In this document: in pieces, positions 3,139 through 17,504 of the stretch
How positions within the stretch are numbered: position 1 is the first letter of the stretch
How the letters are laid out: every line of letters starts with the position of its first letter
Origin: a virus
Strand: one strand, 5' to 3'
Length of the DNA: 20,134 nucleotides
Virus record (IMG/VR): IMGVR_UViG_3300033153_001873
Coordinates: 24,133-44,266 of that record
The notes under the pieces: model-generated
The model's input: only the letters and a program-made list of their open reading frames with translations
The model's database searches: none
Told to the model about the DNA's origin: nothing
Program-made: the position numbers and the translations under genes

Positions 3139-3435
3139 ATGGGCAAGCCGTACTACGCACACACGAATCTAGGAGTTGCGATGGTACAGCGGGGCTGGTC
3201 TGTGTCCGATCTCAGTTTTGAGACACGCATCAACCCGAGGTACATTGGCTACTACCTCAAGGGTGAGAAGGCTTTGACGCCGGACCACCTTCGCAAGATT
3301 GCTCAAGTGATGAGGGTGGATCCACGGGACTTGTTCCAAACGGCAGCAGAGTTGGCGGCTCTGAACCCTCACCAAGATCACGCACAGGCTGAGCGATCCG
3401 ATCTTCGGTTTAGGGATTACGCACATGAGTCGTGA
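3139..3435 (+). CDS. Cro/CI-type (XRE) helix-turn-helix protein, 98 aa
   Basis: The segment at about 11-67 has the layout of an XRE-family DNA-binding domain: a first helix (LGVAMVQRGW), the turn pair 'SVSDLSFETRINPRYIGYYLKGEKAL', then 'PDHLRKIAQVMRVDPRDLF', whose ending is typical of CI/Cro and SinR relatives. A short hydrophilic tail follows, with no oligomerisation or peptidase domain. It starts nine bases after the stop of the large virion gene and its stop overlaps the next gene (GTGA), so it is probably co-transcribed with late genes. A repressor-type protein in a late operon is unusual; it may control the cassette that follows or shut off early genes late in infection. The family call is firm; the target is unknown. 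Confidence 0.85.
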   Translation: MGKPYYAHTNLGVAMVQRGWSVSDLSFETRINPRYIGYYLKGEKALTPDHLRKIAQVMRVDPRDLFQTAAELAALNPHQDHAQAERSDLRFRDYAHES

Positions 3436-6957: not shown

Positions 6958-7293
6958 TCACTGCTCCCGGCTTGCGAGGAGTGCGGTTATGTCTTCGACG
7001 AATCCTTTGAACCCGTCGAGGTCCATGTACAGGACGGAGGTGAACTCGCCGTCCTTGTCCATCATGATGTAGGGGTCTTCGGCTTCGTCGTCGTTGCCGG
7101 GGGCACTGTTGTAGGCGAGTACACCGGAGGTGGTGAAGGCCATCATGTACAACTCGTCGGTGTGTCCGACAAGCTGACCGTCTTTGGCCTGCCCAAACCC
7201 TGATGCTTCACCGACAACGTGGGCACGGACAGTTGGTCCGCCGTACTCGGATGCCAACGATTCAACGATGGCTTCTAGCTCAGGTACCTTCAT
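6958..7293 (-). CDS. Unknown acidic protein, 111 aa
   Basis: No family recognised. The ATG at 7293 overlaps the ATPase stop as ATGA and has GGGAG nine bases upstream; an in-frame start four codons earlier is less likely. The protein has helical ends ('PELEAIVESLASEYGG', 'FKGFVEDITALLASREQ') around a beta-like core ('LYMMAFTTSGVLAYNS', 'TSVLYMDL') and an acidic loop with DDEAEDPYIMMDKDGE. It lies between the Sak4-like ATPase and the ERCC4-type nuclease, so it may assist either. Confidence 0.7.
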   Translation of the reverse strand: MKVPELEAIVESLASEYGGPTVRAHVVGEASGFGQAKDGQLVGHTDELYMMAFTTSGVLAYNSAPGNDDEAEDPYIMMDKDGEFTSVLYMDLDGFKGFVEDITALLASREQ

Positions 7294-8078
7294 GACTTCT
7301 CCCATCCGGCACGCACCATGATGTAGGACCGGAAGAACGAGGTGTATTCCTCGTTGTCCATCCGGTCATCTTCACGGCCTCGGTCCTTGACGGTGGAGAG
7401 GCTGAAGTTACCTGCCCTGTCTTTGCCGGTGAGGAGGATCGTGTTGACCCTGTGTCCCAGCGACTTCTGGCCGACAGGCTTGAGTCGATGTGAGCCGTAC
7501 ATGGCTCGTGCATCCTTGTCTTCGGTGTCGGACAGCCCGGTGACTTCGGCAGTCATGATGACGTGTCCGGGAAAGCGGTTCATCAGTCGGTAGAGCTGGC
7601 CGTACACCTTGTTGATGATGCCCCAGTCTTTCCATCCGTCGAACGCCTGCCCCTTGCCGCTGGCTTTGCGTGTCTCCAAGAAGAACTCGGACAGGTCTGA
7701 CCCGAACACCTCTGTTGAGTAGTAGTCCTGTGCTGCCTGCCACAACGGGGAGATCGAGTCGATGATGAGCAGGTCATCCCGCTCAGCTGATTCGATGAAC
7801 CCTTTGAGTGCGGTGATGTGTGCTTCCCAGTCGTCAGCGTACAGATCCTTGACGTACATGTTCTCCCGGTTGTCAACGGTACTGGTTTCCAGCATCCGTT
7901 CGTAGGAGAAGTCGTTGTCGAGGACGTAGACGCTGTTGCCGTTGCCGCCTGCCAATACCTGCTTGGCGAAGTCCATGGCTGCCCATGACTTGCCGGTTCC
8001 TGCCGGACCCATCAACAGGATCCGCTCTCGTGAGTTGAGTGTTGCTTGGTATGTCATCAGCACGCCCCTACTGCCCAT
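7290..8078 (-). CDS. RecA-fold ATPase of the Sak4/AAA_24 type
   Basis: A single P-loop ATPase domain of about 262 residues. Walker A is GPAGTGKS at 24-31 and Walker B is LLIIDS ending near residue 108, followed by 'SPLWQAAQDYY' and later 'VIMTAEVTG' and 'HRVNTILLTGKD'. This order is typical of phage Sak4-like and related RecA-core ATPases, which load or assist single-strand annealing and recombination. The start is uncertain: ATG at 8105 overlaps the nuclease gene by 11 bases, ATG at 8078 (chosen) follows AAGAAGA, and ATG at 8057 follows AGGGG. It sits directly below a PD-(D/E)XK nuclease, the usual exonuclease-plus-recombinase pairing. It lacks a visible N-terminal or C-terminal partner domain. 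Confidence 0.85.
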   Translation of the reverse strand: MGSRGVLMTYQATLNSRERILLMGPAGTGKSWAAMDFAKQVLAGGNGNSVYVLDNDFSYERMLETSTVDNRENMYVKDLYADDWEAHITALKGFIESAERDDLLIIDSISPLWQAAQDYYSTEVFGSDLSEFFLETRKASGKGQAFDGWKDWGIINKVYGQLYRLMNRFPGHVIMTAEVTGLSDTEDKDARAMYGSHRLKPVGQKSLGHRVNTILLTGKDRAGNFSLSTVKDRGREDDRMDNEEYTSFFRSYIMVRAGWEKS

Positions 8079-8094
8079 GTGAGTGTCTTCTTCA

Positions 8095-9003
8095 TCAGTC
8101 CACATCCTTCCGGGGTGTGATTTTCAGGTACCTGCGGGTGTATTCCCGAGGCTTCTTCTCTTTGACTTCGGCTTCCACCCAAGTCAGCTTGGTTCCGTTT
8201 GTGCTTCTTGCTTTCCCGCCTTCAGCCTGAACTTGCTCAGCCACTCGTGCCTGAACTTCTTTTAGCTCAGACTCGGCGGCGGCCTTCTTCTGCTTCAGGA
8301 CTGATATCAGATTCAACTCTAGGTCTATGTCCAATACGGGTAGGTCGTCGTGGCATTCTGAGTACGGACACCATGACGAATCAAAGGTGGTGCATCTCAC
8401 CGGCTCTGCTTCTTGCAGCCTGTTGATCTTCGCTACGAGGTGGCTGTGAGTCGGGTAGTCGTACACAGGTTGCAGCAGCTTCGTCCAGAGTTCACCGGTC
8501 AACGACCCGTTCTTCTTCTCAGCTACACAGAACCAGTACTTCTCCTCGTCGGGGCGGTGGATCCGTTCGTAGGCTGCCAACTGCCACGAGTACTTGAGTG
8601 CAAGCCCAGTGCGTTTCTCCCAAGGCAGATCAAACTGCTTCTTGAGATCCTCGCTGGCCTTCTCACTCATGCACTTGATCTCAACGATCGCATTGTCGTC
8701 GGGGTGCTCACGGTCGGTGCCACCAGTGATAGTCCAACCGTTGATCCAAGTCTCACCGGGGCACGATTCCATCCACTCAGTTGCATCCAAATGCTGTCTG
8801 TCGCACATCAACTGGAATGCCTGTTCTTCCAGACTGGATGAGTCATCCATCGCTTCCCGCACAAACGGCGGCGGCGGTGTTTCACTCAACCCATTCCTGA
8901 TGGCCCACACCAACCCGGTTTCACACCCACCAAGTGCAGAGGCTCTCAGGTGTACAACGTCGCCGTTCTTCTGAACACTCGGTCTTTCCCTACCCTCTTG
9001 CAT
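8095..9003 (-). CDS. Cas4/RecB-like PD-(D/E)XK exonuclease, 302 aa
   Basis: The start is the ATG at 9003, six bases after GGAGGTGA, rather than the nearby ATG at 9015. The nuclease core shows GGTD (94-97), VEIK (107-110) and the QxxxY helix as 'YSWQLAAY' (about 138-145), which together are the metal and catalytic signature of the RecB/Cas4/lambda-exonuclease superfamily. Cysteines at 27, 204, 212 and 217 (one early, three late) resemble the four Fe-S ligands of Cas4 and AddB. A coiled-coil segment follows at about 223-262. Such enzymes resect double-stranded ends. The neighbouring Sak4-like ATPase supports a phage recombination pair. There are no cas genes nearby. Confidence 0.87.
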   Translation of the reverse strand: MQEGRERPSVQKNGDVVHLRASALGGCETGLVWAIRNGLSETPPPPFVREAMDDSSSLEEQAFQLMCDRQHLDATEWMESCPGETWINGWTITGGTDREHPDDNAIVEIKCMSEKASEDLKKQFDLPWEKRTGLALKYSWQLAAYERIHRPDEEKYWFCVAEKKNGSLTGELWTKLLQPVYDYPTHSHLVAKINRLQEAEPVRCTTFDSSWCPYSECHDDLPVLDIDLELNLISVLKQKKAAAESELKEVQARVAEQVQAEGGKARSTNGTKLTWVEAEVKEKKPREYTRRYLKITPRKDVD

Positions 9004-9105
9004 AGTCACCTCCATGACTACCCCACGGGGAGGAGAGAGGCAGGAACCAGACAGGAGGGACTGGCTCCCGCCCCTGCTCACACCCTTATTGGGGGGGGAA
9101 TGTGA

Positions 9106-9131
9106 GCGTAGCGAACTTTCGCTCGCTACGC
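9106..9131 (-). terminator. 9-bp perfect hairpin in the gap between two recombination genes
   Basis: GCGTAGCGA at 9106-9114 pairs with TCGCTACGC at 9123-9131 across an eight-base loop, starting four bases after the stop of the 194-aa gene. On the minus strand it is followed by TCACATT and a run of eight C, not by a T-tract, so it may be a partial terminator, attenuator or RNA-processing site rather than a full stop. The 132-base gap (9004-9135) is the largest inside this operon and otherwise holds only the nuclease ribosome binding site. Confidence 0.45.
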
Positions 9132-9135
9132 CAGA

Positions 9136-9720
9136 TCAGCTGAAGTCCCAGAAGGACTCGTTGAGAACCAGCTTGCGGCTGGTGGCGTCGAGTTCATCCG
9201 ATGCCAGAGCAGCTTCGAGGAAGCTGTCGTAGTCGTCGGACTCGGCACACAAGGTGATGAGCCATGCAGGGGGAGCGTCGGCCTCGGCCTTGGCACCACC
9301 AACAGCAGCAGTCGGAAGCAGACGCTCCCACTCACGCTTCTCACCGTCGATGACGGAGGAACGAGAGAACGTCTCCCACACTGCCGACAGACCCTTCCAG
9401 CTTGCTGCCTCACGGGGGCTGCCCTTGGTGGCAACCTGTGAGATCAGGTGCTCGTCAGCCAGCAGCGCCGTGACCAGCTCACCGATGGCCGAAGACTTGT
9501 GGAACATGTTGCTCTTGTTTGCAGAGCAGTCCACTTCACCCTCGTTCACCAGCGTGACCTTCTTGCCGACGCCGTAGTACTTGTTGAACTCGTTGGTTCC
9601 GTTGTCGAGAACGAGGACCAGCTGTACGCCGTAGTCACCCTCCTCGAAGTAGGCGTCCGTGACCGTGGCCTCGAACGTCTCGTCGAAAGTCGAGGCTACG
9701 CCCCACTCTTCCGTGCTCAT
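9136..9720 (-). CDS. Possible phage DNA-binding protein, 194 aa
   Basis: First gene of the recombination operon. The ATG at 9720 follows GGGAGG by eight bases. The N-terminal half has alternating beta strands: 'FEATVTDAYFEEGDYGVQLV' then 'LVLDNGTNEFNKYYGVGKKV'. This resembles the pattern I associate with OB-fold or phage single-strand-binding-type proteins placed just before Cas4-like nucleases and RecA-fold ATPases. The C-terminal half is helical and ends in 'SFLEAALASDELDATSRKLV'. No motif proves DNA binding, and the tail ends in SFWDFS rather than a classic acidic SSB tail. The position is the main argument. Confidence 0.6.
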   Translation of the reverse strand: MSTEEWGVASTFDETFEATVTDAYFEEGDYGVQLVLVLDNGTNEFNKYYGVGKKVTLVNEGEVDCSANKSNMFHKSSAIGELVTALLADEHLISQVATKGSPREAASWKGLSAVWETFSRSSVIDGEKREWERLLPTAAVGGAKAEADAPPAWLITLCAESDDYDSFLEAALASDELDATSRKLVLNESFWDFS

Positions 9721-9762: not shown

Positions 9763-9797
9763 CTTCTACTAGTAGATTCCATTTGCTGGAATCAAAT
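9763..9797 (-). promoter_or_regulatory. Shared phage promoter/operator element, copy 1
   Basis: Read on the minus strand: ATTTGATTCCAGCAAA, then TGGAATC, then CTAGTAGAAG. TTGATT (9790-9795) is 18 bases from TAGTAG (9766-9771), which could serve as -35 and -10. The 16-bp word recurs unchanged at 11871-11886 and 17489-17504. GATTCCA and TGGAATC also form a 7-bp inverted repeat around GCAAA. It lies in front of the operon starting at 9720 and its left part includes the helicase stop codon. Confidence 0.65.
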
Positions 9798-11288
9798 CCC
9801 CTCCAACCCGGTGGCGTAATCTATCGCATCACGCCACCATGCGGGGAACTTGCGTCGGTTACTCCGTATGAGTCCCGGTGCGCTCTCGTCGAGGATGATA
9901 GTCACCCCGACATCGGTCTTGCTTCTTACGTGACGACCCGTCATCTGTAGCAGAGTCCTGATCGCCTGTGTCTTGTACCAGTCATCGAACTGCGGGCGGG
10001 TCAGCCGTGCCTTCTTGCTCATCACGATCTGGTCCTTCACCGGAGCGAAGGGGATCTTCGTGACGATGGCACAGTCAACCTCGGGCAGGTCCACTCCCCG
10101 GTCCATCGAGGCAGCGAACAGTACACCTCCATCGACGGCACGGAAAGTATCTAGCACCGATTGTTTGCTGATTGCGTTGTCGTAGATCAGACCCTCGCCT
10201 ACCAGCTCGTGCAGTTGCTTGGCCCGTGCATAGCTCACACAGTGCACCAGAATCTTCCAGTCGGGATGGTTGTCCATCACCGTCCGAATATTCGCGGCCA
10301 TCCCCGGCAGGTCGTCTTTGCCATACCCCATGGGGATCAGATTCCCCTTCGGTACGTGGATCGGACGGTTCTCCTTCGGGAACGTCATCGGCACCTCAAT
10401 GTGGGCGATGTCGCCGTCGAAATCCAAGTCAACCCGCATCAGACCTTCAGCATCCACAACAGACCCGCTCATCAGCAGGAACTGTTCTGCGTGCTTCCAC
10501 AGGTACCTCTCACCGTCCACCACTAGTGGCTTCAGGATCAGGCTCCCGTTGTGGCCCTTCATCACTCGTGACCAGTCCTCATCTTCCATGGCGAGGATTT
10601 GCGTTGCCAGAGTGACCTTGCCGGACAGTTTCCGCTTCTCCTGCGGATCCTTCAGGTAGTTGACCTCTGAACGGGCCTTGGTAATGAACTGCTTGAGGTA
10701 CCGCTTGATGTGCGCCTTGTTGCTGCTCTTCGGTATCTCCAGCTGCAACTTGTTGCTCTGACGGGTAGTGAACCGGAACTCACCGGCCTGTAGTACCTGT
10801 GTCGGCAGCATGTCGCACTCATCGAAGATCAGCCCGTCTTTACGCCACTGACGGGTGAACGGGAAGTTCGTCAGCATGTAACTGGTGTTGAGGCAGGCCA
10901 ACTGCCCTTCAAGCGCATTCTGTTTCGCTATCCGGTAGGGGCATGACTCGGTGGGGGTACACAGGTTGCATATCTTGCCGGTGCAGTCATCTGCGGTCTT
11001 GCCGCCCCCTACGTGGTAGTTGGCACGGCCCTTCGCCACGTTGGCGTATCCAAAGTCCTTTGCGAACTGATCTTGCAGTGCTTTGTCGGTGCAGATGTAG
11101 GCCGTTTGCTCCCACTTCATCCGTTGACGCACCACCTCTGCGATCAGGGTCTTCCCTGAGCCGGTCGGAGCGTCCAGCACAACGGCCTCAGCGCCGTCCC
11201 GGTATGCCGACACCACAGCCTCGATGGCGTCCGTCTGGTGGCCTCTCAGGCCGTCTGAGGCCCACTTGGGCAGGTTCACGTCCTTCAT
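9792..11288 (-). CDS. DinG/XPD-like superfamily 2 DNA helicase, 498 aa
   Basis: Motifs run in the order of the XPD/DinG family: Q-like 'LRGHQTDAIEAV', Walker A APTGSGKT (40-47), 'GRANYH' (88-92), a cysteine cluster C102, C107, C110, C116, then Walker B as FDECD (155-159) instead of DEAH, 'LLMSGSVVD', 'GVLFAASMDRGVDLPEVDCA', and motif VI 'LLQMTGRHVRS' near 441-452. The cysteines probably hold the family's Fe-S cluster, although the usual Cys just after GRxNY is Val93. Such helicases unwind DNA 5' to 3' and open forks, flaps or R-loops. The gene is ATGA-coupled to the upstream unknown gene. Its stop lies inside the repeated regulatory element. It is a good candidate for the phage replication or repair helicase. 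Confidence 0.92.
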   Translation of the reverse strand: MKDVNLPKWASDGLRGHQTDAIEAVVSAYRDGAEAVVLDAPTGSGKTLIAEVVRQRMKWEQTAYICTDKALQDQFAKDFGYANVAKGRANYHVGGGKTADDCTGKICNLCTPTESCPYRIAKQNALEGQLACLNTSYMLTNFPFTRQWRKDGLIFDECDMLPTQVLQAGEFRFTTRQSNKLQLEIPKSSNKAHIKRYLKQFITKARSEVNYLKDPQEKRKLSGKVTLATQILAMEDEDWSRVMKGHNGSLILKPLVVDGERYLWKHAEQFLLMSGSVVDAEGLMRVDLDFDGDIAHIEVPMTFPKENRPIHVPKGNLIPMGYGKDDLPGMAANIRTVMDNHPDWKILVHCVSYARAKQLHELVGEGLIYDNAISKQSVLDTFRAVDGGVLFAASMDRGVDLPEVDCAIVTKIPFAPVKDQIVMSKKARLTRPQFDDWYKTQAIRTLLQMTGRHVRSKTDVGVTIILDESAPGLIRSNRRKFPAWWRDAIDYATGLEGI

Positions 11289-11821
11289 TGGTCCCTCAGC
11301 TCGTCGTAGTGGTCAACCAGTTCCTGATAGGCCGTCCTTGACCCAAGAATGTTGTTCAGTTGGTAGTCGTCGAACTCAGCGAGGATGATCTCGCACATCT
11401 TCAGCTGGTCCTTCGTACTTTGGCTCGGAGCGAAAGCAATTTCGAAGTTGAGCATCAAACGCTCTCTCTGTTGGTCCCTCAGCCGGTACTGAACCTGCTG
11501 ACGGATTTCTTCACCCCTCAGTGACAGGTGTTCGGCCACCTTGGGGTCATTCAGTATCCCGGCGCCGATTGAGCCGACCACAGACCTGACGAACTCCAAC
11601 GGTGTCCCGTATTGCTCTGCCAGCTCTGGATAGGCCGCACAGATCGCTGCCCATATCTGGTTCCACTCGTTCTGTTGGATTGACATCCTCCAGCGACCTG
11701 TCTTCCCGTCGTAGAGGTCGAACTGGACCGGATGGCCCTTCGAGTCCCTCGACATCCACTTGTTGAGAGGAATGAGGATGTCTTGACGGCTCTCCTCGCC
11801 CCTCCACTCTTCTATTCCCAC
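11285..11821 (-). CDS. Unknown protein coupled to the helicase, 178 aa
   Basis: No family recognised. GTG start at 11821 with GAGAGGT about six bases upstream; the stop overlaps the helicase ATG (ATGA). The N-terminus is mixed ('DILIPLNKWMSRDSKGHPVQ', 'TGRWRMSIQQNEWNQIWAAI') and the rest is mostly helical, with a Gln/Arg-rich segment 'RQQVQYRLRDQQRERLML' and a helical tail. It is the first gene of a two-gene unit below element copy 2, so it probably acts with the helicase, for example as loader or substrate adaptor. That is inference from context only. Confidence 0.75.
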   Translation of the reverse strand: MGIEEWRGEESRQDILIPLNKWMSRDSKGHPVQFDLYDGKTGRWRMSIQQNEWNQIWAAICAAYPELAEQYGTPLEFVRSVVGSIGAGILNDPKVAEHLSLRGEEIRQQVQYRLRDQQRERLMLNFEIAFAPSQSTKDQLKMCEIILAEFDDYQLNNILGSRTAYQELVDHYDELRDQ

Positions 11822-11852
11822 GATTACCTCTCTTAGTAGTCGATCTGACCAC

Positions 11853-11886
11853 TTCTAGTAGTTGTTGCCGTTTGCTGGAATCAAAT
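11853..11886 (-). promoter_or_regulatory. Shared phage promoter/operator element, copy 2
   Basis: The minus strand reads ATTTGATTCCAGCAAA, then 12 bases, then TACTAGAAG. TTGATT (11879-11884) is again 18 bases from TACTAG (11855-11860). The TGGAA arm seen in copies 1 and 3 is CGGCA here, so the inner inverted repeat is lost while the 16-bp word is intact. A second CTACTAAGAG lies downstream near 11832-11841. It precedes the GTG start at 11821 with a leader of about 30 bases. Confidence 0.65.
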
Positions 11887-11906
11887 GGTTCCCTATTCCA
11901 GACGTA

Positions 11907-11958
11907 GTCCCCCCCTTATTACTAAGTAATACAGGAAACCGTGCCTTAAGGGGGGGAC
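11907..11958. repeat. 12-bp inverted repeat enclosing an AT palindrome
   Basis: GTCCCCCCCTTA at 11907-11918 pairs perfectly with TAAGGGGGGGAC at 11947-11958. Overlapping the left arm and loop is a 15-base palindrome TATTACTAAGTAATA (11917-11931). The patch lies in the 180-base gap between the HNH gene and the helicase operon. It may terminate the HNH transcript, or serve as a protein-binding or origin-like site; no T-tract follows. Confidence 0.6.
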
Positions 11959-11984
11959 CAGCCCCGAAATAGGGGACCAGCCCC
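11953..11984. repeat. 13-bp direct repeat, two copies
   Basis: GGGGACCAGCCCC occurs at 11953-11965 and again at 11972-11984, 19 bases apart and separated by GAAATA. Each copy is itself a small GGGG/CCCC dyad. The first copy overlaps the right arm of the 12-bp inverted repeat. The rest of the gap to 12001 (ACCAGAACCGCCGCCG...) shows nothing further. Confidence 0.6.
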
Positions 11985-12001
11985 ACCAGAACCGCCGCCG
12001 T

Positions 12002-12463
12002 TTACGGCAGCCCCGCACATGCGTCCTCTTCGTCGCCATCAGATACGCCCATGTCGCACATCCGGCGATCCACACAGGTATGGGTGTCCGCATGGTCGCT
12101 TCGCTCGTACTGTGTGCGTGTCATGTAGCCCGGACCCCACCACTGCGCACCCTTGAGCCGATTGCAGCTGTTACACGAGCGCACAAGGTTGTACGGCAGG
12201 TTGTTGCCCTTGTCCCCGTCCACATGGTCGATCACGTACTCGGTGGACAGACGGGTGTCCCCGCACCAGTGACAACCAATCAAGGGGATACCCTCATACT
12301 CGGCCACGCACAGATGCACCGCGCGATTTGCCGTGTACCCATTCGGGTATTGGTAGGTCATCATCCAGTAGCCTCGGGTGGATGGACGCGCAGGCCACGC
12401 CCAACCATACGGCAGGTCCGCAGGGAGGGCGTGCACGAACTTCGATTTGTGATTGGGAGACAT
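12002..12463 (-). CDS. HNH endonuclease, 153 aa
   Basis: The ATG at 12463 has GAGAGG about eight bases upstream; a longer frame to 12586 would run through the hairpin region and is rejected. The core is CHWCG (64-68), then YVIDHVDGDKGNNLPYNL (77-94) with the D-H pair and the Asn, then SCNSCN (96-101): an HNH fold with two CxxC knuckles holding zinc. The N-terminal part has aromatic, Gly- and Tyr-rich sequence. HNH proteins in phages act in packaging, as homing endonucleases, or against competing DNA. This one stands alone between structured non-coding stretches beside a tRNA gene and away from the virion genes, which favours a free-standing homing-type enzyme. Confidence 0.88.
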   Translation of the reverse strand: MSPNHKSKFVHALPADLPYGWAWPARPSTRGYWMMTYQYPNGYTANRAVHLCVAEYEGIPLIGCHWCGDTRLSTEYVIDHVDGDKGNNLPYNLVRSCNSCNRLKGAQWWGPGYMTRTQYERSDHADTHTCVDRRMCDMGVSDGDEEDACAGLP

Positions 12464-12544
12464 CTCCTGATCCTCTCTATCGTTGGGGCCACACATGGCG
12501 GCGCGATGTATGTCGCACTCATGGAGGCGAGCGTCTGGTAAACA

Positions 12545-12590
12545 TGACAAGGCGTGGGGGTCCAATCGAACCCCCATTCCGCCCATGTCA
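12545..12590 (+). other. Long interrupted hairpin directly before the tRNA
   Basis: Pairs TGACA/TGTCA, GGCG/CGCC and TGGGGGT/ACCCCCA form about 16 base pairs with a three-base bulge (TTC), a 1x2 internal loop and an eight-base top loop. It ends three bases before the tRNA 5' end. It could be a processing signal in the tRNA precursor, a terminator for the opposite strand, or a protein site. It does not fold as a tRNA. Confidence 0.55.
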
Positions 12591-12593
12591 CGA

Positions 12594-12665
12594 TCCGGGG
12601 TAGTTCAGTGGCAGAACGCCTGACTGTTAATCAGGATGTCGTAGGTTCGACCCCTACCCCCGGAG
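12594..12665 (+). tRNA. tRNA-Asn (anticodon GTT)
   Basis: A complete cloverleaf: acceptor TCCGGGG/CCCCGGA (7 perfect pairs), D stem GTTC/GAAC with loop AGTGGCA, anticodon stem CCTGA/TCAGG with loop CTGTTAA (anticodon GTT), variable loop ATGTC, and T stem GTAGG/CCTAC with loop TTCGACC; discriminator G. The 3' CCA is not encoded and must be added by the host. It is on the plus strand while all genes around it are on the minus strand, and it ends two bases before the stop codon of a convergent small gene. Confidence 0.95.
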
Positions 12666-12667
12666 CA

Positions 12668-12787
12668 CTACCGTAGGCCACACATCCAGTCGAGGATGCC
12701 CCGCACACGCTTCTTCTCACGGTTCTTGCGTGCGTTCTCCTTCTCCTGCTCGTATGCCTTGCGTGCCTTGACGTGCTTCTGCTTCAT
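12668..12787 (-). CDS. Small basic protein, 39 aa, last gene of the AAA+ operon
   Basis: The ATG at 12787 overlaps the upstream stop as ATGA, with GGGAGAG and GGAG in front. The product begins MKQKHVKARKAYEQEKENAR and ends in WMCGLR. It is very rich in Lys, Arg and Glu and would form one charged helix followed by a short hydrophobic end (ILDWMCG). No family is recognised; an RNA- or protein-binding peptide is possible. The coupling continues the ATGA chain from 17459 down to here, which is the main reason to accept so short a gene. Confidence 0.6.
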   Translation of the reverse strand: MKQKHVKARKAYEQEKENARKNREKKRVRGILDWMCGLR

Positions 12788-13044
12788 AGCTCCAACTCTC
12801 CCTGTCCGGGTATCTCTGGCCGCACCATGCGACCCCACACTTGCTTATTCCTGCCAACGAACTCAACTTTCCAGCCCGCAGCTACATCCTTGTGCACCCA
12901 CTTCATTGACTTGTAGCCACTGCACACAGCGGTATTGGGGTTGACTAGCACCCACATACCCTCGTGATCCAGCAGCATCTCACGTATTTCACTTGTTGGG
13001 CCGTACTGGCGTTCAGGTAGGTCGCTCCGCAACTCTTCCATCAT
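12784..13044 (-). CDS. Unknown protein, 86 aa
   Basis: No family recognised. The ATG at 13044 overlaps the upstream stop (ATGA); GGGAGG lies so close that the next ATG (13041) may be the true start. After a polar N-terminus come 'SEIREMLLDHEGMWVLVNPN' and then 'GYKSMKWVHKDVAAGWKVEF', a beta-rich stretch with many aromatic residues that could form a small nucleic-acid-binding barrel. The end is 'WGRMVRPEIPGQGELEL'. Member of the AAA+/DUF7192 operon. Confidence 0.7.
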   Translation of the reverse strand: MMEELRSDLPERQYGPTSEIREMLLDHEGMWVLVNPNTAVCSGYKSMKWVHKDVAAGWKVEFVGRNKQVWGRMVRPEIPGQGELEL

Positions 13045-13904
13045 GCCTCCCACACCATCGTGTTGATGAACTGGTCACAGATCAAGTCCACGTTGTTGTT
13101 CTTTGCTTCCGCCAGTTCCAACACAGCCTCGCCACTCATACCCGGCAGGTCAGCCATGGTGTAGAGGGGCAGGTCAAGGACAGCGTTTACAGCGCTGCTG
13201 CCAGCGATGTGTCGTGACAGTTCCACAGGCCAGACATCCTCGCCATCGAGGATGGGCTTGTCATCCTCACTGATGTAACCCATCTCGAAGGCAACACACA
13301 GCGCCTCATCCTGCGTCAGCTCTTGAGGATGACCGCTCCATGGGTGAGGGAACTTGAACCGGGCAGTGCCGTACCGCTGCGACATCTCCCAGCCTGTACG
13401 TTCAGCCAGCCAAGGGCCAAGCCGCTTCTCCCATTCACGGGACTTCTGGTATCGCATCGGCTGAGTGAGCAAGCCTTCACCCACAAGCCACTGTGCCACT
13501 GTGCTATGACGCTTGTACACATCAGTGCCCTCACCGAACAGGTTGTGGGCATTGGCACTGATACGTTGCCTGAACGCCCACTCCCACAAGGGGATGTTGC
13601 CCTTGTCAGCGTTGTTCAGTTCCTGCATCGGGATGGTGGACATCTCTACGCGGTAGCCCCGTGCCCTAGTGACCGTGAGGCTTCTTCCCCTCTCGCTTAC
13701 CTCACCGAACCTGTTGCGTCGTGTCAGTGTGCCTTTGGTTCCCAACTCACTGAAGCCCCACACCAGCGGGGCAGTGAGTGTGACTTGGTAGGTGTGGTCG
13801 TTGTTCAGGTCGTACAGCAGGAAGGTGTGGTTGGGTACCCAGTTGTCTGTCTTGAGCCACCCATGTGTGTTGTGTGCTACTTGCAGCTCAGCCAGTTTGC
13901 TCAT
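13041..13904 (-). CDS. Unknown protein of the AAA+ operon, 287 aa
   Basis: The ATG at 13904 is ATGA-coupled and follows GGGGAGGAG, which sets the start. The N-terminal third is beta-rich ('HTFLLYDLNNDHTYQVTLTA', 'GYRVEMSTIPM'), the middle is helical and Trp/Arg-rich ('LWEWAFRQRISANAHNLFG', 'REWEKRLGPWLAERTGWEM'), and the C-terminus contains 'EALCVAFEMGYISEDDKPIL' near 197-217, similar to a segment of the next gene upstream. No catalytic motif seen. Its place below the AAA+ ATPase and DUF7192-like gene suggests a partner, adaptor or substrate of that machine. Confidence 0.75.
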   Translation of the reverse strand: MSKLAELQVAHNTHGWLKTDNWVPNHTFLLYDLNNDHTYQVTLTAPLVWGFSELGTKGTLTRRNRFGEVSERGRSLTVTRARGYRVEMSTIPMQELNNADKGNIPLWEWAFRQRISANAHNLFGEGTDVYKRHSTVAQWLVGEGLLTQPMRYQKSREWEKRLGPWLAERTGWEMSQRYGTARFKFPHPWSGHPQELTQDEALCVAFEMGYISEDDKPILDGEDVWPVELSRHIAGSSAVNAVLDLPLYTMADLPGMSGEAVLELAEAKNNNVDLICDQFINTMVWEA

Positions 13905-14674
13905 CGCTCCTCCCCAAACGCCTTGCGGACAGCCTCGGGGCTGATGTTGTTCATCGTGGCGAAGCACTGCACGATCAGCTCAGCAACGTACGCCTTGTCG
14001 CCACCTCGTGCCTTGGCCTCGTCGTATGGGATGCCGAGGTCGTCACACATCTTGAACGTGTCACCGATGATGTCGTCATCCTCACCGAACGGCAGGTCGG
14101 CAGTGTCACCATCCAGCACCATCTCAAGCACTTCGAACGGTGACTTGCCAGCCAGCTTCTCGTCCAACTCCTCCATGAGTGTCTGCTCACCCACACTGTT
14201 GTTCACTTCTTCGATCAGCACCTTCACGCCCACTGCCAGCATCGGCTCCAGATCCTCACGGTCCACGAAGCCAAGCTCGTAGGCAGCGATGAGTGCACGC
14301 TGCTTGATGAGGAAGCTGTCCATCGACGAACTCCAAGCGTAGGTGTGCACAAGCTGGTGGCTCATGCTTTGCAGCAGTGACGCACTGAAGTTGATCTCCT
14401 TGTACTTCGACATGTTGATGGCGTCCACCACATCGGACACATGGGACACGGTAGACGCCATGTTGAACGGTTCACACACGATCATGGCGGTCATCAATGC
14501 CTGTCGTGCAGTGAGTGTCATCTCGCCACCGGGCAGGTACTCGTGGCGTATCTCGATCACCTGCTCGTTGTCGATGTCGGCCAGTACCTCATCCAAGTGT
14601 TCACGCTTCACCTCTCGGAAGCGTTCATTCATGTCGTCGTTCTCTTCCATCATGCGGTCAAACTCATCGCTCAT
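13901..14674 (-). CDS. Unknown acidic protein of the AAA+ operon, 257 aa
   Basis: The ATG at 14674 has GGAGG eight bases upstream and begins one base after the upstream stop. The protein is largely helical and acidic, opening with MSDEFDRMMEENDDMNERF. A Met/Ala-rich middle ('ARQALMTAMIVCEPFNMAST') precedes 'RALIAAYELGFVDREDLEPM' at about 125-145, a segment that matches one in the following gene (pattern ALxxAxExGxxxxxDxxPxL). The C-terminal half has acidic loops (DGDTADLPFGEDDD). No family recognised. Next to the 287-aa gene it may form a hetero-complex through the shared segment. Confidence 0.75.
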   Translation of the reverse strand: MSDEFDRMMEENDDMNERFREVKREHLDEVLADIDNEQVIEIRHEYLPGGEMTLTARQALMTAMIVCEPFNMASTVSHVSDVVDAINMSKYKEINFSASLLQSMSHQLVHTYAWSSSMDSFLIKQRALIAAYELGFVDREDLEPMLAVGVKVLIEEVNNSVGEQTLMEELDEKLAGKSPFEVLEMVLDGDTADLPFGEDDDIIGDTFKMCDDLGIPYDEAKARGGDKAYVAELIVQCFATMNNISPEAVRKAFGEER

Positions 14675-14675
14675 C

Positions 14676-14861
14676 TCAAATCCTCCCAAGGATCGTGTGG
14701 TGTTCCGTTGACGTGTACTTTGCTTTCACTGCCTCTCCTGTGGGCAGCATGAACATTGCTAGTCGTGCTTTGTTACCGGGCTTGTCGATCATCCTCACCG
14801 TGATCGTCGGGTTGTGGGCAGAGCGAACGATCGCCCCTTGTGGTAGGTGCTCGACCTTCAT
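14676..14861 (-). CDS. Small basic protein, 61 aa
   Basis: ATGA overlap with the DUF7192-like gene and a one-base gap to the next gene make it part of the chain, although no strong ribosome binding site is visible (GTGAG only), so it may depend on translational coupling. The sequence is a compact beta-type domain ('GAIVRSAHNPTITVRMIDKP', 'KARLAMFMLPTGEAVKAKYT') with a basic charge, like small SH3- or KOW-type folds. No family is recognised. Confidence 0.65.
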   Translation of the reverse strand: MKVEHLPQGAIVRSAHNPTITVRMIDKPGNKARLAMFMLPTGEAVKAKYTSTEHHTILGRI

Positions 14862-15751
14862 GCGTACTCACTGGCACGCTGATCGCCTCGCTCCATCATG
14901 CGGTCGTACAGTTCCTCGACGTTTGTCTCATCACCTGCCTTGTAGCGTGGGATGACAAGATCGAACTGGTCCACGATCTCGGCAGGGAAGTCGGTCACCT
15001 TGCCGTACCCGCCGTTCTTCGTGAACCCGAACAACTCACGCTGCTTCATGTCACGCTGCTCGTTGAGGAAGAAACACACTCGGCGCAGCATCGTGGGATG
15101 GCCGATCGTGTAGGCCAGCACGTTCGGGTCGATGATGTCGTTGTATTCCTTGAGCAACACCATCTCGCACACATGCTGGCCACGATTCTGACCTGACTTG
15201 ACACTCTCACCAACCCACAACTCTACGTTCATGCCACTTGCGATCACTGCCTCGACAGCAGCAACCACAGCAGCGCCACGCTTGACCAGATCGGTGGCCT
15301 GCACCGTGGAACTTGCAACACAGTTGACAAGAACCTTGATCGCCTTGCCACGCAACGTGTCCTCATCCATCCACGTTTCCCACATGTGCTCAGGTTCGCC
15401 ACGCAGGTAACGGTCAATGTCAACGTCGCCGCCACTCACGTCCAGTACCCGACGTGTGCTGGAGGCGATGTAGTCGTTGACTTTCTCCTGCATGTTGCGC
15501 AGCATCTCTTCGACCTGATTGCTGATGTCGTCAGTGTGCGCATCCCATCCGTGGATCATGCCTTCGGCTGAGTCCTCCAACTCCCAGCCGTCGTAGAACT
15601 CCTTGTCGTAGTAGTTGCTCAATGCGTATTCGATGGTCCGTGAGGAAGCAATCTCGTTGCGGTCGATGTCACCAATGTTGCGAAGGTGAGTGTCGATCAG
15701 GTCACGTACTTCGGGCAGCGTGTACTCGTTGACGTGGGCGGTGATACTCAT
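14858..15751 (-). CDS. DUF7192-like (vWA-like) partner of the AAA+ ATPase, 297 aa
   Basis: Starts by ATGA overlap with the AAA+ gene. An N-terminal segment 'GWELEDSAEGMIHGWDAH' (55-72) is followed by 'KAIKVLVNCVASS' (136-148), the helix 'DLVKRGAAVVAAVEAVIASG' (154-173), the strand 'MNVELWVGES' (174-183) and 'IGHPTMLRRVCFFLNE' (216-231). This strand-helix-strand order, with the RRGAAVxALV-type helix and GHPxMLRR block, is what I recall for proteins called DUF7192 in actinobacterial plasmids and phages; the name should be confirmed. The layout resembles a von Willebrand A fold, but the DxSxS metal site is replaced by NCVASS. Pairing with a MoxR/CobS-like ATPase recalls MoxR-vWA and CobS-CobT couples. 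Confidence 0.72.
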   Translation of the reverse strand: MSITAHVNEYTLPEVRDLIDTHLRNIGDIDRNEIASSRTIEYALSNYYDKEFYDGWELEDSAEGMIHGWDAHTDDISNQVEEMLRNMQEKVNDYIASSTRRVLDVSGGDVDIDRYLRGEPEHMWETWMDEDTLRGKAIKVLVNCVASSTVQATDLVKRGAAVVAAVEAVIASGMNVELWVGESVKSGQNRGQHVCEMVLLKEYNDIIDPNVLAYTIGHPTMLRRVCFFLNEQRDMKQRELFGFTKNGGYGKVTDFPAEIVDQFDLVIPRYKAGDETNVEELYDRMMERGDQRASEYA

Positions 15752-17238
15752 CGGATCCCCGTTCCTGCCAGCATGTGCTCACGACGACCCTCGGGCAGCC
15801 CTGCCAGCACTCGGGTATCGAGCACCTTGGTCGTGGACCAGCCAATGGACTTGAGCTGTGCACCAGCGATCGCATCTCGCATCGACACTGCACACCGGAT
15901 CTTGTACTGCTCGGCGTTCTTCCGCAGCGTGTGCACGATCTCCAGCCAGTTGTTGACCTCCGTCGTGTTGAGTCGTGACTTCGTGGTGACGAGGAACTCT
16001 TCGAGCGACTCATCGGTCGGGACGTGCAGCTTCGTGAAGCGGTTGAGGAATGCCGTGTCGAGCGGGTTGCGACCCATGAACTCGGCGGTGGCACCCATGC
16101 CCCATGTGTTGGCAGTGGTCACCATGCGAGCGTTGGGGTGACGGTCAACCCAACCATCAGGGAAGGTCACACCAGCACCTGCCAGCGCCTGATTCTTCGT
16201 GGTGATGATGCCGGGGTGACCGTTGTCCACCTCGTCACCGCAGAACAGCCGGCCCTTCTCGCTGGCGTCGCTGTCCACGTCGTACCACTCACGGAACGGC
16301 GTGCTCACGTAGTGGCCTTCGGCGTTCGGGTAGCCCCACAGCCTCGACTCGGGCGTCTGTGGCCCATACGAGATGCTGAAGTAGTCCCAACCGAGGATGG
16401 ATGCGACCTGTTCGGTGAGGTACGACTTGCCGGTGCCCGCAGGCCCCTGCAAGAACGCTTCCTGCCCGATCATGACGACATCGAGCAGATCCTGCAACAC
16501 GGGATGTGCATCGGCGGGCAGTTCGATCTGCCTCTTGAGCTGCTCGAACTCTTCGAACTGCTCTTCCGCTTCGGCCTGTGCCTCCTTGCGCTCCTGCTCC
16601 TGTGCCTCCTGCTGCTGCTGCTGCTCACGCTCGGCCTCTTCGGCTGCCTCGCGGGCCTCGTTGTTCCACTGCTCCCGTGCTTCGGACTTCTCCTGCTCCT
16701 GCTGCTCGTACTCCTGTCGTGCCTGCTCCCGCTGCTCTACGGCCTGCTGGAGTTTCTCTGCCTGCGTGTCGAGGTCGTCACCGGGCTGCGTCTGCAACTC
16801 TTCCGGTACGTTCCACTGGAATGACTCGGGCTGTATGTCGGAAGGCTGGTCGTTGTGTGAGCCGTCACCCTCGGGGATGTCGTTGCTGCTCATGCTCTGG
16901 TCCTCGTCTTCCACAGACCCGTCCTCGCTTGCGGGGGCCTCGGATGCGCGGTGTCCTTCGTCTCCATCAGATTCGACAGGACGCCTATTCCACCCTTGGC
17001 CGTACGCCCCGTACACCATCGCGATGATCTCGTCGTTGGTCATGCTCGACCAACGCCCATCCTCCGTGTCGGGGGCGCATCCTGCCTTCACGGCTGCACG
17101 AAGCAACTCATGTCGGGGCAGGTCAGCCAACGTGAGCTGCGTGATGTCGCCGTTCTGCTTGTCCTTCATCCACACGTGCACCACGTCGTTGATGCATTCG
17201 ATCTTGTGCACCAGTCGTGCCTTGTTGGGTCCGCTCAT
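15748..17238 (-). CDS. MoxR/CobS-like AAA+ ATPase with coiled-coil region, 496 aa
   Basis: Residues 1-90 form an N-terminal module ending 'MTNDEIIAMVYGAYGQGWNR'. A disordered acidic Ser/Asp/Glu/Pro stretch (about 90-150) and a long Gln/Glu/Arg coiled coil (about 155-240) follow. The AAA+ domain starts near 245: Walker A QGPAGTGKS (about 262-271), 'GPQTPESRLWGYP', Walker B LFCGDEVDN (about 330-338), sensor 1 MVTTANTWG (about 371-379), and arginine-finger region DTAFLNRF (about 392-399), followed by the C-terminal lid with 'CAVSMRDAIAGAQL'. These are AAA_5/MoxR-CobS features: hexameric motors that remodel or load partners, usually with a vWA protein. The next gene looks like that partner. It is coupled on both sides by ATGA and lies in the operon behind element copy 3. 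Confidence 0.9.
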   Translation of the reverse strand: MSGPNKARLVHKIECINDVVHVWMKDKQNGDITQLTLADLPRHELLRAAVKAGCAPDTEDGRWSSMTNDEIIAMVYGAYGQGWNRRPVESDGDEGHRASEAPASEDGSVEDEDQSMSSNDIPEGDGSHNDQPSDIQPESFQWNVPEELQTQPGDDLDTQAEKLQQAVEQREQARQEYEQQEQEKSEAREQWNNEAREAAEEAEREQQQQQEAQEQERKEAQAEAEEQFEEFEQLKRQIELPADAHPVLQDLLDVVMIGQEAFLQGPAGTGKSYLTEQVASILGWDYFSISYGPQTPESRLWGYPNAEGHYVSTPFREWYDVDSDASEKGRLFCGDEVDNGHPGIITTKNQALAGAGVTFPDGWVDRHPNARMVTTANTWGMGATAEFMGRNPLDTAFLNRFTKLHVPTDESLEEFLVTTKSRLNTTEVNNWLEIVHTLRKNAEQYKIRCAVSMRDAIAGAQLKSIGWSTTKVLDTRVLAGLPEGRREHMLAGTGIR

Positions 17239-17459
17239 CGTGTCTCTCCTGTCATCTCATCGCCCACCCATTCGAGTGTGCGTTCTTCGATCCCTGTCTC
17301 GTCGTCGTCGAATGCCAACTCCACTGGCATCCATTCCTCCATCGGCACGTCTTCGTCACCCATTACGCCTTGCACGTGGGTGGTTGAGCCGATGACTTGT
17401 ACGTGGTGGCAGTACAACCACGCACCAGTATCGCTGTCGTGTAGGAACGTACTCACCAT
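17235..17459 (-). CDS. Unknown acidic protein, 74 aa, first gene of the AAA+ operon
   Basis: The ATG at 17459 has AAAGGAGA about eight bases upstream. ATGA overlap joins it to the AAA+ gene. The N-terminus reads 'MVSTFLHDSDTGAWLYCHHV', then a beta-like stretch and a strongly acidic C-terminal half ('LAFDDDETGIEERTLEWVGD'). No family recognised. Its leader position suggests a regulatory or adaptor subunit, but nothing in the sequence proves this. Confidence 0.7.
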   Translation of the reverse strand: MVSTFLHDSDTGAWLYCHHVQVIGSTTHVQGVMGDEDVPMEEWMPVELAFDDDETGIEERTLEWVGDEMTGETR

Positions 17460-17472
17460 GTCATTTCTCCTT

Positions 17473-17504
17473 TCACTAACTGTTTCCATTTGCTGGAATC
17501 AAAT
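17473..17504 (-). promoter_or_regulatory. Shared phage promoter/operator element, copy 3
   Basis: The minus strand reads ATTTGATTCCAGCAAA, then TGGAAACAGT, then TAGTGAAAG. TTGATT (17497-17502) is 18 bases from TAGTGA (17473-17478), the same spacing as in copies 1 and 2. TTCCA and TGGAA form a 5-bp dyad around GCAAA. The ribosome binding site AAAGGAG of the 74-aa gene overlaps the presumed -10, so either the start point lies further upstream or the element is an operator rather than the promoter itself. Confidence 0.6.

Follow-up and report, generated by a model that had tools for sequence, protein, structure and literature searches.

A 35-nt unit repeated at three early gene boundaries of a phage contig, very probably a promoter or operator site

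Phage control sites that recur at several gene boundaries are of more than one kind. The middle promoters of phage T4, which are of the MotA box type, combine an activator box with a good -10 hexamer, TATAAT. In the cluster K mycobacteriophage Adephagia, the extended start-associated sequences (ESAS) number seven; they are intergenic, 46-47 bp long, and contain an inverted repeat together with putative SigA-like -35 and -10 hexamers separated by 17-18 bp, their function being unproven (PMC3203893, PMC11373665). The stoperators of cluster A phages are 20-30 asymmetric repressor sites of 13-14 bp that lie at gene boundaries in one orientation relative to transcription (PMC6550527).

Here we analyse a window of 20,134 nt, bases 24133-44266 of a 44,266-bp viral contig (IMGVR_UViG_3300033153_001873); positions below are those of the window unless another record is named. 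It contains three near-identical 35-nt units, which very probably belong to a familiar class of control site, the promoter or the operator.

Extent and number of the repeated unit

A preliminary description of this DNA had reported a 16-bp element, ATTTGATTCCAGCAAA, three times on the minus strand. All three copies are exact, and they are the only exact copies in the 44,266-bp contig. They lie at 9782-9797 (copy A), 11871-11886 (copy B) and 17489-17504 (copy C), all on the minus strand and in the single orientation that had been claimed; the coordinates given earlier for copies B and C were correct, and copy A had been placed one base too early, at 9781. A search for ATTTGATTCCAGCAAA with up to three mismatches recovers the same three sites and no others in the window, and shuffled sequences gave a mean of 0.05 matches and never three. 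The remainder of the contig has no further copy, its best other match having four mismatches.

With the copies set in register at the 16-mer, we tested their flanks against random minus-strand triplets (20,000 samples). Over the 19 nt 3' of the 16-mer, the pairwise identities are 12, 13 and 14 of 19, against a null of 4.9 per pair; the summed matches of 39 compare with a null mean of 14.7, and 0 of the 20,000 samples were as high. Similarity over the next 20 nt is at background, and the 10 nt preceding the 16-mer show marginal similarity (p 0.017). Because the similarity covers the 16-mer and the following 19 nt and then falls to background, the unit is 35 nt long and extends further than the 16 bp first reported. 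Its sequence is ATTTGATTCCAGCAAAYGGMANCNNNTASTRRAAG, or in shorter form ATTTGATTCCAGCAAAYGGMANC...TASTRRAAG. Conservation within the unit is graded, being perfect over 16 nt and about 70% thereafter. Copies A and C have 21 identical nt in common, together with 7 of the 10 nt preceding the element. The fixed spacing described earlier also holds, with TTGATT followed by exactly 18 nt and then by TAGTAG, TACTAG or TAGTGA in the three copies.

The 3' part of the element, CTAGTAGAAG, also lies at the end of the contig (20035-20044, minus strand), within the first early gene's leader and without the 16-mer, and again inside the ERCC4 gene. Both occurrences are too short to support a claim.

Gene boundaries in this phage and its relatives

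From about 19981 down to 4381, the minus strand carries a single, densely packed gene cluster; most of its junctions are overlaps, commonly of 4 nt. The three copies occupy three of the few gapped junctions on this strand, which bears out the earlier statement that they always lie just before an operon start. Only 3.3% of placements are as non-coding as the copies, giving about 3e-5 for all three.

Copy C (35-nt element at 17470..17504, minus strand) lies between a 305-aa gene and a small gene of about 74 aa (17235..17459, minus strand), which has no family match and starts at ATG 17459 behind the Shine-Dalgarno sequence AAAGGAG; the second gene behind this copy encodes an AAA_5/MoxR-type ATPase (15748..17238, minus strand). 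Copy B (11852..11886, minus strand) lies between a large hairpin, which follows an HNH endonuclease gene, and a 178-aa gene (11285..11821, minus strand) that overlaps by 4 nt the gene for a DEAD/DinG-like DNA helicase (9792..11288, minus strand; phrog_2488, Helicase_C_2). Copy A (9763..9797, minus strand) lies between this helicase gene and an SSB-like gene (9136..9720, minus strand), whose start at 9720 was set by homology to the nearest relative, L151 (IMGVR_UViG_3300044729_001638), with 41.5% identity there. The SSB-like label is a presumptive one, taken from position and size, as the protein has no family match. The genes upstream of copies A and C both terminate at the TGA of the element itself (GGG ATT TGA, GGC ATT TGA). 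The distance from the 16-mer to the start codon is about 61 nt for copy A, 49 nt for copy B and 29 nt for copy C.

The hairpin directly upstream of copy B is a 33-nt inverted repeat (11886..11979, minus strand) with a stem of about -53 kcal/mol (z -5.1), and is terminator-like with no T run. Another hairpin directly follows the SSB-like gene (9075..9145, minus strand; z -4.9), and its L151 equivalent at 10770-10840 has a z-score of -7.2; these two hairpins occupy the same place in both phages and differ in sequence. The gene that follows the post-SSB-like hairpin has no element in front of it, and the element is therefore not needed at every boundary. A tRNA-Asn gene at 12594-12666 on the plus strand lies antisense within the minus-strand early cluster, adjoining a stop codon and an HNH gene; it has no counterpart in the ten related loci scanned.

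The phage collection contained no close DNA relative. Single-protein scans of IMG/VR with the helicase, the AAA+ protein and the portal returned no relative, but alignments did, and alignment-based searches found the helicase in 11 records. L151 is syntenic across the early region, with identities of 51% for the AAA+ protein, 41% for a DUF7192 protein, 40% for the helicase, 42% for the SSB-like protein, 49% for a Sak4-like protein and 48% for ERCC4. Its three matching junctions are gapped too, and many of its other junctions overlap. Junction C of L151 has a perfect palindrome overlapping the stop codon, junction B a 133-nt structure (z -7.1) and junction A nothing notable. Because the same junctions are gapped in L151, with strong hairpins at B and C, they look like real operon boundaries. 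A motif scan of relatives had been proposed earlier, and it finds the element in none of 11 records, namely the complete L151 record and ten other syntenic or partly related ones. Thus, it is the boundaries that are conserved, and not the words they carry; three copies in one genome with none in 11 related records amount to no evolutionary replication of the element. The closest terminase (71%) is encoded by a 23.7-kb contig, L056, that has neither early genes nor the element.

Broader scans gave the same picture of an element that has so far been seen in one virus only. In 1.4 Mb of retrieved sequence, the matches consisted of two loci that had been retrieved with that very pattern, plus chance-level matches. 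The extended pattern had two chance-like matches in 84,980 bacterial and archaeal genomes, and the 35-nt unit matched nothing among GenBank phages with E below 4. The exact 16-mer occurs in 42 IMG/VR contigs, mostly AT-rich, with one copy each and none continuing to YGG, and we set these aside as chance or coding matches. An 18-mer, TTTGATTCCAGCAAAYGG, occurs in 59 IMG/VR contigs, again with one copy each, mostly within a recurring stretch that resembles the antisense of a conserved coding sequence; these were rejected as an unrelated family.

Several of the related records have repeats of their own. L151 carries a junction word, TTGTGAACCACMA, at two junctions and once inside a gene; we do not claim the word as a homologue of the element. 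At 1644-1671 and 4290-4331 of L151, a perfect palindrome or hairpin lies over stop codons at gene boundaries and is followed by TTGTGAACCACMA. In L156, exact copies of GGAGACAGGCATG stand at five gene starts (1045, 1660, 2362, 2819 and 3735), spanning the ribosome-binding site and ATG, where 0.86 would be expected by chance with two mismatches allowed; their layout is similar to that of the cluster K start-associated sequences. Because relatives such as L156 carry repeats at gene starts, private start-linked words seem to be common in this phage group. L155 contains an exact 62-nt direct repeat (678-739 and 1198-1259) between early genes. In L004, a 764-aa protein that looks hydrolase-like by eye is encoded at 7025-9319 in the structural gene region.

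Promoter tests and alternative explanations

The unit has defined ends and a single orientation, it sits at gapped operon boundaries, and duplex stability is low at its TASTRR block; together these features point to a control site that most likely acts on DNA as a promoter or operator. On balance, and by a small measure, we believe that the 35-bp unit is a lineage-specific DNA control site, where transcription is started or gated for three early operons, comprising the SSB-like/recombination genes, the 178-aa protein with the helicase, and the small protein with the AAA+ ATPase. The kind of site is known; the sequence is new. The 45-nt stretches at the copies fall among the least stable 0.1% (A), 1.3% (B) and 0.15% (C) of the strand, and a 15-nt stability minimum starts 20 nt into each copy, over the TASTRR block. 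The starts behind the copies rank 1-3 of 24 tested for unstable upstream DNA, a few of the start codons used being estimates; such a ranking would in part be expected from the sequence that the copies have in common, and is therefore supporting evidence only. At such a site, a polymerase or DNA-binding regulator would read the invariant 16-mer at about the -35 position, and the duplex would melt about 18 bp downstream of it.

The hexamers named in the preliminary description could be read as an ordinary sigma-70 promoter, with TTGATT as the -35 hexamer and TAGTAG, TACTAG or TAGTGA as the -10. TTGATT does match TTGACA at 4/6 positions, and 18 bp is a permitted spacing. However, none of the second hexamers ends in the near-invariant T, a TANNNT -10 at usable spacing is absent from all three copies, and a sigma-70 consensus scan finds no promoter at any of them. 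With TAGTGA as the -10 of copy C, the transcript start 6-8 nt further on would fall inside AAGGAG, so that the next gene would lose its ribosome-binding site. An ordinary sigma-70 promoter is therefore very doubtful: the earlier proposal of a shared cis-acting control site before three replication and recombination operons is well supported, but a sigma-70 -10 is absent and the geometry that one would require fails at copy C.

Given that there is no canonical -10, the site would have to be recognised with the help of an activator, by a non-standard sigma factor or by a modified polymerase. A Sigma70_r4 profile search, which covers that family alone, found no phage sigma factor in the contig, with controls positive in 14/14 cases. 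For a T7-type single-subunit RNA polymerase, PF00940 gave no match in a contig that may be incomplete, and the control genomes were silent too; the early proteins scanned include no RNA polymerase match. We think it unlikely that the host polymerase is guided to -10-less promoters by a phage-encoded factor, such as an activator or an alternative specificity subunit, with each phage of the group having a private word at the same conserved boundaries. The XRE/HTH_3 protein encoded at 3139..3435 on the plus strand, the contig's sole HTH_3 match, had been put forward as the binder. Its L151 counterpart is 69% identical and has an identical recognition segment (recognition helix), NPRYIGYYLKGEK, yet the 38-kb L151 record has no match to the element at up to three mismatches. 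Judged from this comparison of sequences, the XRE protein is therefore an unlikely, though not impossible, binder of the element.

In another reading, a phage regulator blocks or pauses polymerase coming from an upstream promoter and the site itself is no promoter. The missing -10 fits such an operator or stoperator, as does a placement at gene boundaries that keeps one direction with respect to transcription, the arrangement described for cluster A (PMC6550527). Against it, there are three copies here rather than 20-30, the L5-type stoperator consensus has only two-mismatch matches that are near chance, the sole HTH_3 protein found is an unlikely binder, and conservation over 35 nt exceeds what a 13-14-bp site needs. 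We consider a site of this kind alone quite unlikely. Still less probable, indeed hardly to be expected, is a remnant of module exchange or duplication, that is, a short sequence copied to operon boundaries by recombination and without a control role. The sequence that copies A and C have in common, within the element and just ahead of it, and the HNH endonuclease gene near copy B would fit such an origin, but the sharp ends, the graded internal conservation, the one orientation, the position relative to gene starts and the background-level 20-nt flanks argue against it. Iterons of a replication origin were also considered; the 2-6 kb that separate the copies led us to reject them.

The alternative that we regard as doubtful but deserving the most weight places the element at the RNA level, as a protein-binding, processing or antitermination site in the mRNA leader that adjusts translation or elongation of the three operons jointly. 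Autoregulation by T4 gp32 or RegA offers a comparison. The element is on the sense strand, about 30-61 nt ahead of the start codons, and in copies A and C it runs over the stop codon of the preceding gene, which would put it inside a longer transcript. The dyad TTTG...CAAA noted earlier does exist, but not every copy preserves its outer pairs. There are in fact two overlapping small dyads with arms of 4-6 bp, CATTTG/CAAATG and GATTCC/GGAATC, which could form small alternative hairpins in copies A and C. However, neither is intact in copy B, no compensatory change is seen across the three copies, and the start codon does not lie at a constant distance. As RNA the copies fold weakly, with 26-nt cores at -7.7 (A), -2.4 (B) and -4.5 kcal/mol (C) and longer leaders having z-scores of -1.1, -0.9 and 0.3. 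An Rfam search gave only a tRNA above threshold.

If the three copies are a promoter or operator set, they map the early regulon of a phage group for which no cultured close relative was found here, and they provide a short sequence that can be tested. Seen against L151, the operon boundaries persist while their words have been replaced, which is relevant to the pace at which regulatory sites are exchanged in phages.

Comparison with described control sites

The element resembles the T4 MotA box in having a conserved box at about -35 before replication and recombination operons, and differs in lacking the good -10 TATAAT of T4 middle promoters; no relative of MotA or AsiA is present among the proteins scanned. 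It shares with the stoperators the arrangement of short, single-orientation sites along early genes with a phage-group-specific sequence, but consists of three 35-nt units for which no cognate repressor is known.

Our analysis suggests that the closest known system is the ESAS of cluster K mycobacteriophages. The differences from it are several: the unit is 35 nt long instead of 46-47, is present in three copies instead of seven and has a different sequence; TTGATT and the 18-bp spacing are present but the SigA-like -10 is absent; and in place of imperfect 15-17-bp inverted repeats there are arms of 4-6 bp that are broken in copy B. The 13-bp SAS that accompanies the ESAS beside the start codon, GGGATAGGAGCCC, has no match at up to two mismatches. 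In common with the ESAS, the element forms a small number of near-identical, promoter-sized intergenic units, set in a single orientation in the early, non-structural half of the genome, with a -35-like hexamer, a spacing of 17-18 bp and an internal inverted repeat, and has been found in one phage group. It thus appears similar to the ESAS in layout without being a member of that family.
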